A stretch of DNA of 64,000 nt from Microcella flavibacter (GTDB lineage Bacteria; Actinomycetota; Actinomycetes; Actinomycetales; Microbacteriaceae): contig NZ_CP051299.1 in NCBI RefSeq assembly GCF_012530535.1, positions 434,001-498,000 of the forward strand, read 5' to 3'. The notes under the pieces were generated by a model. The model saw only the letters and a program-made list of their open reading frames with translations, made no database searches and was not told where the DNA came from. Both the position numbers and the translations under genes were made by a program. Below are positions 20,227 through 26,154 of this stretch, piece by piece. Each line of letters starts with the position of its first letter. Positions within the stretch are counted from its first letter, which is position 1.

Positions 20227-21501
20227 GTGTCCAGCCTGCCCAGTTCCTTCAACGACGCGCTCATCGACGTCGACCCCGAGATCGCCGCCGTGCTCGAGCA
20301 GGAGCTCGGCCGTCAGCGCGACACCCTCGAGATGATCGCGAGCGAGAACTTCGTCTCGCGCGCCATCCTCGAGGCGCAGGGCTCGGTGCTCACCAACAAG
20401 TACGCCGAGGGCTACCCCGGCAAGCGCTACTACGGCGGCTGCGAGTTCGTCGACATCGCCGAGAACCTCGCCATCGAGCGGGCCAAGAGCCTCTTCGGCG
20501 CCCAGTTCGCCAACGTGCAGCCCCACTCCGGCGCCTCCGCGAGCGCCGCCGTGCTGCACGCCCTCGCCCAGCCGGGCGACACCATCCTCGGCCTCGAGCT
20601 CGCCCACGGCGGCCACCTCACCCATGGCATGAAGCTCAACTTCTCGGGCAAGGTCTACAACGCCACCAGCTACGGCGTCGACCCCGAGACGATGCTCGTG
20701 GACATGGACGTCGTGCGCGCCAAGGCCCTCGAGGTCAAGCCGACGGTCATCATCGCGGGCTGGTCGGCCTACTCGCGCCAGCTCGACTTCGCCGCCTTCC
20801 GCGCCATCGCCGACGAGGTCGGCGCCAAGCTCTGGGTCGACATGGCCCACTTCGCCGGCCTCGTCGCCGCGGGCCTGCACCCCTCGCCGCTGCCCCACGC
20901 GCACGTCGTCAGCTCGACCGTGCACAAGACCCTCGCCGGCCCCCGCTCGGGCATCATCCTCAGCAACGACGAGTCGCTGTTCAAGAAGCTCAACTCGGCC
21001 GTGTTCCCGGGTCAGCAGGGCGGGCCGCTCATGCACGTCATCGCGGCGAAGGCCGTGGCGTTCAAGCTCGCGGCCCTGCCGGAGTTCGTGGAGCGCCAGG
21101 AGCGCACGATCGCCGGCGCGCGCATCCTCGCCGACCGCCTCACCCAGGATGACGCGATCGCCGCGGGCGTCAACGTGCTCACGGGCGGCACCGACGTGCA
21201 CCTCGCCCTCGTCGACCTGCGCACCTCGCCCCTCAACGGCCTCGAGGCGGAGGACCTGCTGCACGAGGTCGGCATCACCGTCAACCGCAACGGCGTGCCC
21301 TTCGACCCCCGCCCGCCGATGGTGACGAGCGGTGTGCGCATCGGCACCCCCGCGCTCGCGACCCGCGGATTCGGCGAGGAGCAGTTCACCGAGGTCGCCG
21401 ACATCATCGCGCGCACCCTCATGCCGAGCCCCGACGTCGCCGCCCTGCGCGGCCGCGTCGCGGCGCTCGCCGACGCCTTCCCCCTGTACCCGGGTCTGTG
21501 A
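20227..21501 (+). CDS. glyA: Serine hydroxymethyltransferase
   Basis: This PLP enzyme converts serine and THF to glycine and 5,10-methylene-THF. The 424-aa sequence has the N-terminal [21 protein letters not shown] (substrate and THF binding), [21 protein letters not shown], and the Schiff-base Lys234 in [13 protein letters not shown]. The start is GTG at 20227 with GAGGAG upstream. The gene sits behind a ZTP riboswitch and overlaps folD by 4 nt, so the two adjacent one-carbon steps are made together. Confidence 0.97.
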
Positions 21502-22403
21502 GCGGGGGCTCCGGGATGCCCGCCCAGCGCCTCGACGGAACCGCCACCGCCCGCACGATCAAGGCCGAGCTCACCGAGCGCGTCCGCGTGCTCGCGGGCC
21601 GCGGCATCGTGCCCGGACTCGCGACGGTGCTCGTCGGCGACGACCCCGGATCCCGGTGGTACGTCGGCGGCAAGCACAAGGACTGCGCCGAGGTCGGCAT
21701 CGCGTCGATCCGCCGCGACCTGCCGGAGTCGACGACGCAGGCCGAGCTTGAGGCCGTCATCGACGACCTCAACGCCGACCCCGCCGTCACGGGCTTCATC
21801 GTGCAGCTGCCGTTGCCGAAGCACATCGACACCGACGCGATCCTCGAGCGGGTCGACCCCGCGAAGGACGCCGACGGACTGCACCCGACGAACCTCGGCC
21901 GGCTCGTGCTGCGTGCGAGCCGCGAGATCGACACCCCGCTGCCCTGCACGCCGCGCGGAGTCATCGAGCTCGTGCAGCGCCACGGCCTCTCCTGGGACGG
22001 CCTCGACGTCGTCGTCATCGGCCGCGGCGTCACCGTCGGCCGCGCGATCGGCGCGCTGCTGACCCGGCGCGAGATCAACGCCACCGTGACGCTCACCCAC
22101 ACCGGCACCCGCGACCTGCCCGCGCACCTGCGCCGCGCCGACGTCATCGTCGCCGCCGCGGGCGTGCCCGGCATCGTCTCGGCCGCCGACGTGAAGCCCG
22201 GCGCGATCGTGCTCGACGTCGGCGTCTCGCGGGTCGTCGACGCGGAGACGGGCGAGTCGCGCATCGCGGGCGACGTGGCTGACGACGTCGCCGAGGTGGC
22301 GTCGTGGATCTCGCCGAACCCGGGCGGCGTCGGCCCCATGACCCGCGCACTGCTGCTCGCGAACGTGGTGGAGACGGCGGAGCGCGCGGCGGGCATCCAC
22401 TAG
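21498..22403 (+). CDS. folD: Bifunctional methylene-THF dehydrogenase/methenyl-THF cyclohydrolase
   Basis: FolD turns 5,10-methylene-THF into 10-formyl-THF for purine synthesis. The 301-aa protein has the catalytic YVGGKHKDC region (conserved Tyr and Lys), [29 protein letters not shown], the dinucleotide loop [13 protein letters not shown] and a C-terminal [14 protein letters not shown]. The loop usually reads GRSxxVG; here the Ser is Gly. The GTG start overlaps glyA; an ATG at 21516 is an alternative. It is under the ZTP riboswitch through glyA. Confidence 0.95.
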
Positions 22404-22444
22404 CCGGTCGGTCGACCTCCTCGGCGTGACCGGGGCGTGCACAG

Positions 22445-22517
22445 ATTCAGGAGCACGGGGTCGGAGCCCGGCGTGTTGCCGCCTGCCCGAGGCCGACGCG
22501 CCGGATGGCTCCTGCAT
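22445..22517. repeat. Palindromic intergenic element A (upstream of the ABC-F gene)
   Basis: This is a two-level inverted repeat. The outer arms are ATTCAGGAGC (22445-22454) and GCTCCTGCAT (22508-22517), with 9 of 10 paired. The inner arms are CCGGCGTGTTG (22468-22478) and CGACGCGCCGG (22494-22504), paired with two G-U wobbles. It begins with CGTGCAC just upstream. It is clearly related to element B at 24419-24493, on the other side of the ABC-F gene, although the arm sequences differ while pairing is kept. Confidence 0.7.
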
Positions 22518-22574
22518 GTCGGCGAACGAAAGCGCGGCGCCCCGCCGATGGCGTTTCGGGATGCCCGGCGCGGG

Positions 22575-22604
22575 TTGACGCCCGCGCGGGGGTTCGCGTA
22601 CCGT
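22575..22604 (+). promoter_or_regulatory. Promoter of the ABC-F gene with short leader
   Basis: TTGACG (22575-22580) and TACCGT (22599-22604) form a good -35/-10 pair with an 18-nt spacer. The leader runs from about 22611 to 22691. It contains ATG CTG ATC TGA (22615-22626), a three-codon reading frame, followed by a possible CCCGC...GCGGG stem. Such leaders can attenuate ABC-F resistance genes, but no ribosome-binding site for the mini-frame is visible. Confidence 0.6.
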
Positions 22605-22691
22605 CGACCCCGACATGCTGATCTGACGTCGACGACCATCCCGCGCCCGAGGCCCTGCCCGGCGGGATCACTGCGACTCGACGGGCATCCC

Positions 22692-24401
22692 ATGTCATCT
22701 CCCTCGTTCTCCTCGGCGGCCGCTGACGGCGCCACGACCATCGCGACCGCCGCGACCGACGCGATCATCGCGCGCGGCCTCGCCCGCTCCTTCGACCGCG
22801 GGCCCGTGCTCGACGGCGTCGACCTCGTCGTACCCGCGGGCGCGCGCATCGGTCTCATCGGCGAGAACGGGGCGGGCAAGTCGACGCTGCTGCGCATCCT
22901 CGCCGGGCTCGACCCGGCCGACGCGGGGGAGGTTTCCCGTCCCGCGCGGCTCGGCTACCTGCCGCAGGAGGTGCCCTTCGACCCGACGGCGCCGGTCGGG
23001 TCGCTCATCGACGCGGCGGTCGCGCCGCTGCGCGCGCTCGAGCGCGAGCTGGAGAGCGCGGCGGCCGGGCTGGCGGGGGAGGCCGGGCGGGCGGGGGAGG
23101 CCGGCGGCGCCGCTCCGGCGGCCGCCGCCGACCGGTACGCCGGGGCGCTCGCTGCCGCCGAACGGGTCGAGCTGTGGGGCTGGCCGGCGCGCCGGGATGC
23201 CCTGCTCGACGGGTTCGGCGTGGCGGGCATCCCGCTCAGCACGCCGCTCGGCGCCGTGTCGGGCGGGCAGCGCAGCCGGCTGGCGCTCGCGGCCCTGCTG
23301 CTGGAGCGCCCCGAGGCCCTGCTGCTCGATGAGCCCACCAACCACCTCGACGACGCCGCGGTCGCGACCCTGCGCACGGCCCTGCTCGGCTGGCGAGGAC
23401 CGGTGCTGTTCGCGAGCCACGACCGCGCCATGCTCGACGAGGCGGCGACGGCGATCGTCGACCTCGACCCGGCGCGGCGGGCGCACGGCGGGCCCGAGGG
23501 GGCGGTGGCGCAGCGCTACGGCGGCGGGTTCAGCGAGTACCTCGTCGAGAAGGCGCGCGAGCGGGAGCGCTGGGAGCAGCGCTTCGCCGAGGAGCAGCGG
23601 GAGCTCGACCGGCTGCGGGGCGGCGTCGCGGTGACGGCCCGGGCCCTCGATACCGGGCCGCGCCCGCCGCGCGACAACGACAAGTTCATCGGGCACTTCA
23701 CGGGCCGGCGCACCGAGGCGGCGACCCGCCGACGGGTGCGCAGCGCCGAGCAGCGGCTCGAACGGCTCGAGGCCGAGCAGCTGCGCAAACCTCCCGCACC
23801 GCTCACCTTCTCCGGCGTGCCGGCGGGCACGACGCCGATCACCGACGGCGTGCTCGTGCAGCTGCGCGGCGCTGCGGTGTCCGGCCGGCTCGCGCCGATC
23901 GACCTGCGCATCGGCGCGCTCGACCGCGTGCTCGTGACGGGGGCGAACGGCGCGGGCAAGTCGACGCTGCTGGCCGTGCTCGCGGGGGCGCTCGCGCACG
24001 AGGGCGTTCGGGATGCCCGGCGCGGGCTGCGCGTCGGAACACTCGAGCAGGACGCCCGCTTCGCCGACCCCTCGCGCACGCCGCGCGCCATCTACGCGGG
24101 AGCCATCGGCGAGCAGCGCGCCGCCGCCCTCCCGCTGCGCGAGCTCGGGCTCATCGCACCCGCCGACCTCGACCGCCCTGTCGGAGCGCTCTCGCTCGGC
24201 CAGCAGCGCCGGCTCGCCCTCGCGCTCGTCATCGCGCGGCCGCCGCACCTGCTGCTGCTCGACGAGCCGACGAACCACCTGTCGCTGCGGCTCGCCGGCG
24301 AGCTCGAGGCGGCGCTCGGCACCTACCCGGGCGCGGTCGTCGTGGCGTCGCACGACCGCTGGCTGCGGGCCCGGTGGGAGGGGCGAGAGGTCGCGCTCTG
24401 A
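22692..24401 (+). CDS. ABC-F family ATPase (ribosome-associated, possible antibiotic resistance factor)
   Basis: A soluble protein of 569 aa with two ATPase domains and no membrane segment. Domain 1 has GENGAGKST, the signature VSGGQRSRL and LLLDEPTNHLD. A charged interdomain linker (about residues 275-370, with KFIGHFTGRR and many Arg/Glu) follows. Domain 2 has GANGAGKST, LSLGQQRRL and LLLDEPTNHLS. ABC-F proteins act on the ribosome; the linker style resembles actinobacterial macrolide/lincosamide-type members, but the drug cannot be predicted. No clear ribosome-binding site precedes the ATG. Two related palindromic elements flank the gene. Confidence 0.9.
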   Translation: MSSPSFSSAAADGATTIATAATDAIIARGLARSFDRGPVLDGVDLVVPAGARIGLIGENGAGKSTLLRILAGLDPADAGEVSRPARLGYLPQEVPFDPTAPVGSLIDAAVAPLRALERELESAAAGLAGEAGRAGEAGGAAPAAAADRYAGALAAAERVELWGWPARRDALLDGFGVAGIPLSTPLGAVSGGQRSRLALAALLLERPEALLLDEPTNHLDDAAVATLRTALLGWRGPVLFASHDRAMLDEAATAIVDLDPARRAHGGPEGAVAQRYGGGFSEYLVEKARERERWEQRFAEEQRELDRLRGGVAVTARALDTGPRPPRDNDKFIGHFTGRRTEAATRRRVRSAEQRLERLEAEQLRKPPAPLTFSGVPAGTTPITDGVLVQLRGAAVSGRLAPIDLRIGALDRVLVTGANGAGKSTLLAVLAGALAHEGVRDARRGLRVGTLEQDARFADPSRTPRAIYAGAIGEQRAAALPLRELGLIAPADLDRPVGALSLGQQRRLALALVIARPPHLLLLDEPTNHLSLRLAGELEAALGTYPGAVVVASHDRWLRARWEGREVAL

Positions 24402-24418
24402 CCGGCTCCGTGCGCGCA

Positions 24419-24493
24419 AATGCAGGACTCAGCGGCGGGGGTTCGGTGTGTCGCCGCGTCGCCGGAGCCGACACGCCGAGCGAGTCCTGCATT
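24419..24493. repeat. Palindromic intergenic element B (downstream of the ABC-F gene)
   Basis: The outer arms AATGCAGGACTC (24419-24430) and GAGTCCTGCATT (24482-24493) are perfect complements. The inner arms TCGGTGTGTCG (24443-24453) and CGACACGCCGA (24469-24479) pair with one G-U wobble. CGTGCGCG on the left and CGTGCACG on the right extend the symmetry. It lies between the ends of two convergent genes and could also act as a terminator. It shares its architecture and much of its loop sequence with element A. Confidence 0.75.
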
Positions 24494-24555
24494 CGTGCAC
24501 GATGCGGGGGCTGCGCGTGCCGGGACGATGGCTTGAGAGGCAAGAGCCGCGCGGC

Positions 24556-26154
24556 TCAGCGGCGGCCGGTCGCGAGCCGCAGGCGCACCGGCTGGCCGGG
24601 CCGCAGCTGGGCGAGCAGGTCGAGCGCGGCATCCGTCACCACCGCGATGACGGGGTAGCCGCCGGTGACGGGCGCGTCGGGGCCGAGCACGGTGGGGGCG
24701 CCGTCGGGCGAGACCTGGATGCTCCCGGGCAGCATCCCCTCGCTGGGCAGCTCGCGCCCGACGGCCGAGGGCTCGCGCGCGAGCACCGGGCCGTCGAGCC
24801 GCACGCCCGTGCGGTCGCTGCGCGCCGAGACCGTCCACTCGGCGTCGAGCAGCGCCTGCCACGCGGCCCGCTCGAACCAGTCGCGGCGCGGACCGGGCCG
24901 CACCGCGAGCTCGACCGCGCCGTCCGTCGGCGGGTCGAGCGGCACGAGGTCGACGGCGGGCACGGGCGTCGGCGGCTCCGGGCCGAGGGGCAGCGCGTCC
25001 CCGGCGGCGAGGGGCGCCGGCCCGAGCCCGGCGAGGGTGTCGCGCGACCGCGAGCCCAGGGTGGCCGGCACGTCGACGCCGCCGCGCACGGCGAGGACGG
25101 CGCGCAGGCCGTGCTCGAGCATCCCGAGGCGCAGCTCGGCGCCGTCGCGCTCGGCGCGCACGGCGGTGCGCGGGGCGACGGGCCGGCCATCGAGGGTGAC
25201 GGGGCCGGTGCCGCCGGTGACAGCGACCCAGGCGCCCGCCGGCAGGGCGAGCACGAGGCCGCCGAGCAGCACCTCGAGGGTCGCCGCGTGCTCGGGATTG
25301 CCGACGAGGCGGTTGGCGAGCCGGTGGGCGGCGCGGTCCATGGCCCCCGCCGCTCCGACGCCGAGGTGCGCGAGGCCGGGGCGCCCGAGGTCCTGCACGA
25401 GCGTGCGCGGGCCGGGGTCGAGCACGCGCAGGGCGCGGTCGGGCGCGATCGGCGCGGGCGGAGCATCCCGCGCCGCCTCTGCCGCGGGGCCCCCGATCGA
25501 CTCGACCGGCACGAACCGCACCCGGTCGCCCGGCGCGATGAGCGCGGGCTGCTCGCGCGCCGCATCCCACAGCACCGCGTCGGTGCGCCCGATGAGCTGC
25601 CAGCCGCCGGGCGACTCGCGCGGGTAGACGCCGCAGTACTCGGCGGCGAGGGCGACCGCGCCGGCCGGCACCCGCGGCCGCGAGGTCGCGCGGCGGGGGA
25701 GTGCGGGCAGCGGGTCGGCGGCCTCTGCGTCGCTGAGCAGCGCGGCCGGGACGAGGTACGGGAACCCGGGCGCGAAGCCCGAGAACGCGCAGACCCACTC
25801 GACGGCCGCGTGCCGCTCGGCGACCTCGGCGACCGTGCACCCCCAGGCCTCGGCGACGGCCGCGAGATCCTCGCCGTCGTACTCCACGGCGATCGGGATG
25901 CTCCGCCCGCCCCGCGCACCGCGCGACCCCGCGCCGCCCTCGCCGGCGCTCGCGGTCGCACGCAACCAGTGCTCCGCGTGCCCGAGGCCGAGCACCGCCG
26001 GATCGATCCGCACGAGCACGGTGCGCGCGGCCGGCACGAGCTCGAGCACCCCCACGGGTGCATTCATGCCCCAGGCGGCATGTGCGGCGAGTGCCCCGGC
26101 GAGCGAGTCGAACTCGGCGAGCAGCGCGCGGTCGCCGGCGGGCAGCAGGCGCAT
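24556..26154 (-). CDS. pxpBC: 5-oxoprolinase subunits B and C, natural fusion (PxpB-PxpC)
   Basis: Together with PxpA this protein hydrolyses 5-oxoproline (pyroglutamate) to glutamate using ATP. Residues 1 to about 225 are PxpB (KipI-like), with FSGFAPGFPYL and PGGWQLIGRT. Residues about 235-532 are PxpC (KipA-like), with VLDPGPRTLVQDLGRPG, AAGAMDRAAHRLANRLVGN, the conserved SDRTGVRLDG, and GYPVIAVV near the end. In many bacteria these are two genes; here they are one 532-aa chain. The ATG shares one base with the pxpA stop, so the two are coupled. Confidence 0.93.
   Translation of the reverse strand: MRLLPAGDRALLAEFDSLAGALAAHAAWGMNAPVGVLELVPAARTVLVRIDPAVLGLGHAEHWLRATASAGEGGAGSRGARGGRSIPIAVEYDGEDLAAVAEAWGCTVAEVAERHAAVEWVCAFSGFAPGFPYLVPAALLSDAEAADPLPALPRRATSRPRVPAGAVALAAEYCGVYPRESPGGWQLIGRTDAVLWDAAREQPALIAPGDRVRFVPVESIGGPAAEAARDAPPAPIAPDRALRVLDPGPRTLVQDLGRPGLAHLGVGAAGAMDRAAHRLANRLVGNPEHAATLEVLLGGLVLALPAGAWVAVTGGTGPVTLDGRPVAPRTAVRAERDGAELRLGMLEHGLRAVLAVRGGVDVPATLGSRSRDTLAGLGPAPLAAGDALPLGPEPPTPVPAVDLVPLDPPTDGAVELAVRPGPRRDWFERAAWQALLDAEWTVSARSDRTGVRLDGPVLAREPSAVGRELPSEGMLPGSIQVSPDGAPTVLGPDAPVTGGYPVIAVVTDAALDLLAQLRPGQPVRLRLATGRR

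Follow-up and report, generated by a model that had tools for sequence, protein, structure and literature searches.

A dispersed palindromic element family in Microbacteriaceae genomes nearly devoid of RAYT, with species-specific arms possibly read by a dedicated factor

Why is an ABC-F ATPase gene in a Microcella chromosome flanked by two similar palindromic sequences, and does the pair belong to this gene? The window, that is, the whole stretch of 64,000 nucleotides that was analysed, covers C1:434001-498000 of a 2.62 Mb single-contig Microcella genome (Microbacteriaceae), and positions below refer to it unless a contig is named. As context only, the region holds folD (21498-22403, + strand; NCBIfam NF010789, 458 bits, above cut-off), the ABC-F ATPase gene (22692-24401, + strand; best NCBIfam match NF000171, below its cut-off) and, convergent with the latter, a 5-oxoprolinase subunit PxpB/PxpC-like gene (24556-26154, - strand; TIGR00724, 275.7 bits, above cut-off). 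A preliminary description had reported two related elements here that have a lead, an outer and an inner stem and an inner sequence in common. All of these parts are present where it placed them, in elements that are slightly wider, with A at 22434-22528 and B at 24409-24503.

Element A, an imperfect copy, lies 30-40 nt past the folD stop codon, and the + strand is the orientation of our covariance model R1 (66.3 bits). On this strand, its 5' outer arm (22436-22452) reads TTCAGGA where TGCAGGA is expected and pairs with mismatches to the 3' outer arm (22510-22526, with TCCTGCAT at 22510-22517). Between the arms are an inner 14-mer, CGGCGTGTTGCCGC (22469-22482), and an inner 10-mer, CGACGCGCCG (22494-22503), which pairs with the start of the 14-mer (both in alignment A3). 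Element B, a good copy (R1 match of 83.4 bits on the + strand and 37 bits on the - strand), lies directly past the ABC-F stop codon, ahead of the convergent pxpBC-like gene. Its parts, again on the + strand, are a 5' outer arm of the ATGCAGGA type (24411-24427, with TCCTGCAT on the - strand at 24420-24427), a 16-nt spacer whose length is constant and whose sequence varies (24428-24443; alignments A3 and A6; divergence between orthologues 0.38), the conserved inner blocks CGGTGTGTCGCCGC (14-mer, 24444-24457) and CGACACGCCG (10-mer, 24469-24478), and a 3' outer arm (24485-24501, with TCCTGCAT at 24485-24492). Each set of outer arms had been described as pairing with itself; this is so for B, where 12 bp pair without a mismatch, and is imperfect for A on account of TTCAGGA. 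The difference between the two sets, GGAGC/GCTCC against GGACTC/GAGTCC, is a true double change, as had been proposed. Folding z-scores on the two strands are strong for B (-5.1 and -4.6) and weak for A (about -1.4 and -1.1).

A whole-genome search with TGCAGGA-n(40-70)-TCCTGCA returned 20 matches, and none with a control pattern. One match, at C1:785810, was without the rest of the design and was counted as chance; the remaining 19 are exact copies (TGCAGGA-n57-TCCTGCA) of 70 or 71 bp that share a longer design: CGTGCACAAATGCAGGAS, spacer, CGGCGTGTCGCCGC, spacer, CGACRCGCCG, spacer, STCCTGCATTTGTGCACG. The architecture is fixed, with outer arms, spacers whose length is kept and whose sequence is not, and an inner CGGCGYGTCG hairpin, the whole element spanning ~95 bp. 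The genome-wide covariance-model search that had been proposed as a test gave 25-26 distinct copies, A and B among them. Elements A and B are therefore two of about 25 copies of a dispersed hairpin family in this genome. Clear tandem pairs (L007 and L019 here; L069, L070, L074 and L079 in the sister species, G018) join two different arm types, GATCAGGA plus TGCAGGA or TTCAGGC, and never one type twice. In the flanks of L015 and L016 of our genome, inside-out half-units (AACTCCTGCAT ... ATGCAGGAGTT) adjoin full copies and are probably remnants or another arrangement.

Folding of 25 copies from our genome was compared with shuffles, giving median z values of -5.1 and -5.2 for the two strands, with z below -2 in 23 of 25 copies on each strand, against a median of -0.48 for neighbouring 95-base flanking stretches. 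Elements A and B alone (n=2) are too few for covariation, and within our genome the outer stem did not covary above shuffles, owing to the near identity of the arm sequences. With 42 copies from our genome and G018 together, 91.1% of outer-stem cells were paired (82.0% in shuffles), 103 cells were doubly changed (44.0 in shuffles) and the covariation score was 0.278 (0.137 in shuffles), values that none of 500 shuffles reached. Double changes occurred in 11 of 17 outer pairs, and the signal was destroyed when the partner was slid by 1 to 3 columns. This covariation bears out the suggestion of selection on a folded or palindromic element and supports mutual pairing as a constraint on the arms; as the shuffles ignore relatedness, the comparison of orthologues given below weighs more. 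The inner stem is conserved in sequence, without compensation. Its changes had been called mostly G-U compatible, and an early signal in our genome that looked strong (79% versus 92.5% of inner cells paired) pointed to strand-specific RNA folding, which was not borne out: the asymmetry, absent in G018, is largely one founder column, and with that column removed 14 G-U cells on one strand stand against 10 on the other.

The sister species G018, whose ABC-F protein is 90% identical to that of our genome, carries about 26 copies, and about 17 of our copies have an orthologous G018 copy with aligned flanking genes. In 10-12 of 13 ungapped orthologous pairs, the same two outer-stem base pairs are switched on both arms, ATGCAGGA/TCCTGCAT standing against ATTCAGGC/GCCTGAAT. 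Columns 14, 19, 77 and 82 changed in 12, 11, 10 and 10 of these 13 pairs, and core columns 13, 15-18, 78-81 and 83 in none. Divergence between orthologues is 38-59% of sites in the spacers, 14% in the inner 14-mer and 6% in the inner 10-mer, and the locus-specific spacers are often still recognisable across the switch (L002/L067, L007/L074, L019/L069). The arms are constrained to a species-specific sequence common to copies across the chromosome. The direction may have been from ATGCAGGA/TCCTGCAT to ATTCAGGC/GCCTGAAT or the reverse. In one G018 copy (L068:1703), the other type is present on a single arm, and a second element type, with GATCAGGA arms, shows no switch between the species. Restriction-site avoidance was rejected as the cause, TGCAGG being about equally frequent outside the elements in both species. 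Mutational correction of palindromes could match the arms within a locus but leaves unexplained why many loci carry the same change.

The family extends well beyond these two species. The inner CGGCGTGTCG/CGACACGCCG hairpin was found in other Microcella (10 of 26 genomes, control 0), nearly always with a loop of 3-4 bases, and copies from several of them carry other outer arms, such as CTCGACCAAATGAAGGG. Matches to R1 occurred in 21 of 85 genera sampled, with a common design and arms of each genus's own. Among the matches listed, AAATGCAGGA-n-TCCTGCATTT, of nearly constant length within most genomes, is found in Homoserinibacter, Frigoribacterium, Protaetiibacter, Salinibacterium, Schumannella, Pseudolysinimonas, Rhodoglobus and others; Homoserinibacter gongjuensis alone has 38 exact copies (control 0). 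In the other genera, locus-specific complementarity continues outward from the arms, with 428 paired cells against 388.8 (sd 11.7) and none of 500 shuffles reaching this value, of which sub-families within a genome may explain part; inward pairing of the spacers did not exceed shuffles. A variant paired perfectly over 25 bp, in which the core letters differ (GTGCCGAAAATCGGACTTCTGCGGC; L104 in G265, 1501-1592), suggests further arm types that R1 hardly reaches. Among the matches listed outside Microbacteriaceae, those in Thiohalomonas, Heimdallarchaeota, Clostridium and a few others look unrelated. In the Thiohalomonas MAG (L156, L161), a different, A+T-rich and nearly perfect long palindrome fits the arm pattern near the ends of short contigs, possibly as a mobile-element end or an assembly effect. 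Taken together, these data very probably describe a real, selected family of dispersed palindromic elements.

Positions were read against gene calls from a simple codon-usage caller made for this analysis. All 51 copies in our genome and G018, a count in which orthologous sites are entered twice, are intergenic, and 48 of them lie at the 3' end of at least one gene, which agrees with the gene-end position suggested earlier. The typical distance from the stop codon is tens of bases. Gene contexts are convergent for 26 copies, codirectional for 22 (12 sense and 10 antisense to the model strand) and divergent for 3; the 103 copies of other genera divide into 36 convergent, 51 codirectional and 16 divergent, with 10 overlapping a called gene. 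Neighbour genes common to different genera gave 107 links against about 9 by rough expectation, a ratio that is indicative only, since some links are paralogues or one locus repeated; the clearest case is citrate synthase, whose gene has an element at its 3' end in six genomes. No shared driver gene was found beside the copies, the recurring families being ABC ATPases, MFS, LacI and true orthologous loci. In our genome, with dnaA at C1:101, 0.79 Mb around the expected replication terminus (G000:C1:889-1684 kb) is without copies, the nearest being at least about 0.37 Mb from that point; a rough post hoc estimate for this region is about 6e-4 with 22 loci, and G018 is not independent, as most sites are common.

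Several grounds speak against the suggestion that A and B bound a unit by which the ABC-F gene was moved, and it is rejected. Many unrelated loci carry copies, single or in tandem; A comes after folD, B after the ABC-F gene; and of 12 other Microcella genomes in which this gene is present, G018 alone has element B at the 3' end of the gene, with the orthologue of B and not that of A. Where our genome has element A, G018 has ~550 extra bases between folD and ABC-F that appear to be a gene for a small membrane protein (L253, G018 C1:1451.1-1451.8 kb). Two other Microcella genomes (L249 and L250, in G017 and G015) have palindromes with other arms, GTCGACCGAACGACGGAGAC and CAAATGACGGAG, roughly where element A would be, ~145 nt upstream of ABC-F.

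What, then, keeps the arms alike across a chromosome? Since the same two base pairs differ at orthologous sites that have kept their own spacers, the simplest account is that a putative trans-acting factor reads the arms, and the resident copies would have followed a change in its specificity. The hairpin most likely forms in single-stranded nucleic acid. In single-stranded DNA, it may offer a route for copying by a putative enzyme, in the past or still rarely; at the 3' end of transcripts from either side, it could limit read-through or protect the mRNA end. We conclude that the copies are mostly resident. As a whole, the explanation of a resident, REPIN-like family whose arms double as a hairpin and as a sequence that a putative trans factor reads is, in our judgement, evenly poised between right and wrong. 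The fuller statement, of Microbacteriaceae-wide palindromes without RAYT that have a dedicated putative recognition factor and species-specific arm 'dialects' switching in place with pairing kept, we hold a little more tentatively. Findings against the preferred explanation include the lack of any gene recurring beside the copies, the lack of strand preference, the lack of a clean target duplication and the divergent gene context of 16 of the 103 copies from other genera.

A doubtful alternative is an active or recent mobile element (a MITE or REPIN) served by a putative non-Y1 transposase and of no benefit to the cell, its position bias being the remainder of insertions after purifying selection. 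Some amplification is needed to produce 25-38 copies per genome with near-identical arms, the layout is REPIN-like, and genes and promoters are avoided. The sister species also differ in presence and absence: at L001, L004 and L006, our genome has copies that are missing from the matching G018 sites, and one site in our genome holds half a copy only where G018 has two. New insertions, however, do not yield arms changed in place at orthologous sites with spacers kept, element sites are partly common to different genera, and neither a transposase near the copies nor a Y1 enzyme was found. Comparison of occupied and empty sites between our genome and G018, where the flanks have diverged, showed no clean target duplication. 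One tandem pair of H. gongjuensis was seen by eye to be a duplication of 151 bp taking in the end of the upstream gene, and a similar pair, inverted and 2 kb apart, also has some flanking bases in common. With no clean target duplication and with local duplications that carry flanks, mobility is unproven.

It is improbable that the elements act purely as RNA, as bidirectional terminators or mRNA 3'-end stabilisers for convergent genes, the concerted arm change then tracking an RNA-binding protein. Such a role would suit copies typically tens of bases past stop codons, about half of the Microcella copies between convergent genes (26/51) and a stable fold on both strands. The lack of strand preference among codirectional copies and of G-U asymmetry beyond one column does not favour it, nor do copies between divergent genes. 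A search for intrinsic terminators (a short-loop G+C-rich stem with a T-run) found no such site within A or B, termination needs neither constant length nor a given arm sequence, and only about 25 copies serve a whole genome. Least probable is that a protein binds double-stranded DNA at two inverted half-sites of fixed spacing, for chromosome organisation or recombination and with the hairpin never forming: conserved arm sequence, constant spacing, an inner motif conserved without compensation, strand symmetry and the copy-free stretch around the expected terminus fit this, but independent half-sites require neither the locus-specific complementarity that extends outside the motif nor the joint variation of many outer-stem columns and their partners, a pattern that sub-families could mimic.

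The resemblance to REP-type repeats that had been proposed stands; the RAYT-type transposase sought with it does not, as searches for Y1/RAYT (PF01797), in which positive controls matched, returned none in our genome and one among 150 genomes of the family. The view that no described element has this pattern is upheld: no Rfam 15 family reached its gathering score for the elements, and the literature search turned up neither a paper on the motif nor one describing such repeats in Microbacteriaceae, any REP- or REPIN-type element included. No match indicated a phage or plasmid origin, a single viral-contig pattern match being A+T-rich and unrelated. The elements therefore appear to be an undescribed repeat family in about twenty genera of one actinobacterial family. 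The switch of both arms at the same sites is a natural experiment in which dispersed elements changed in concert without a known transposase, and it opens a search for the factor through its change in specificity.

Several described systems share parts of this design. ERIC, or enterobacterial intergenic repeat units, are imperfect palindromes of about 127 bp, intergenic and present in tens of copies, and we know of no dedicated transposase for them. The elements here are likewise imperfect palindromes of roughly 100 bases, intergenic and in tens of copies, and are set apart by description, with another sequence, length and phylum and with species-specific arm types. Neisseria DNA uptake sequences form inverted pairs at gene ends, with species dialects and thousands of copies; gene-end position and species-specific dialects recur here, in contrast with tens of copies, a long fixed spacing and no shown link to uptake. 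By direct inspection, the outer arms hold no GTAG tag and no short hairpin inside an arm, and integron attC core sites (RYYYAAC/GTTRRRY) were not seen in them. CGTC-tagged REPs are single tagged palindromes of 20-40 bp, interspersed and reported without a dedicated transposase (PMC3733652); the present repeats are also palindromic, interspersed and without a dedicated transposase, but are ~95 bp long, and 57 nt separate their two arms, between which lies an inner hairpin. Among described designs, the REPIN comes closest, a REP doublet of Pseudomonas and others with conserved inverted ends, a spacer kept in length, a hairpin and compensatory changes (PMC3116915). Unlike REPINs, the present elements occur in a genome that lacks RAYT and in a family where it is almost absent, their arms are not GTAG/CGTC-tagged REPs, and about 25-38 copies have arms that switched in place at orthologous sites. 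Like REPINs, they have two conserved inverted ends, a length-kept spacer, a hairpin and compensatory changes, and they are extragenic, occur in tandem clusters and comprise several types per genome (PMC3116915).
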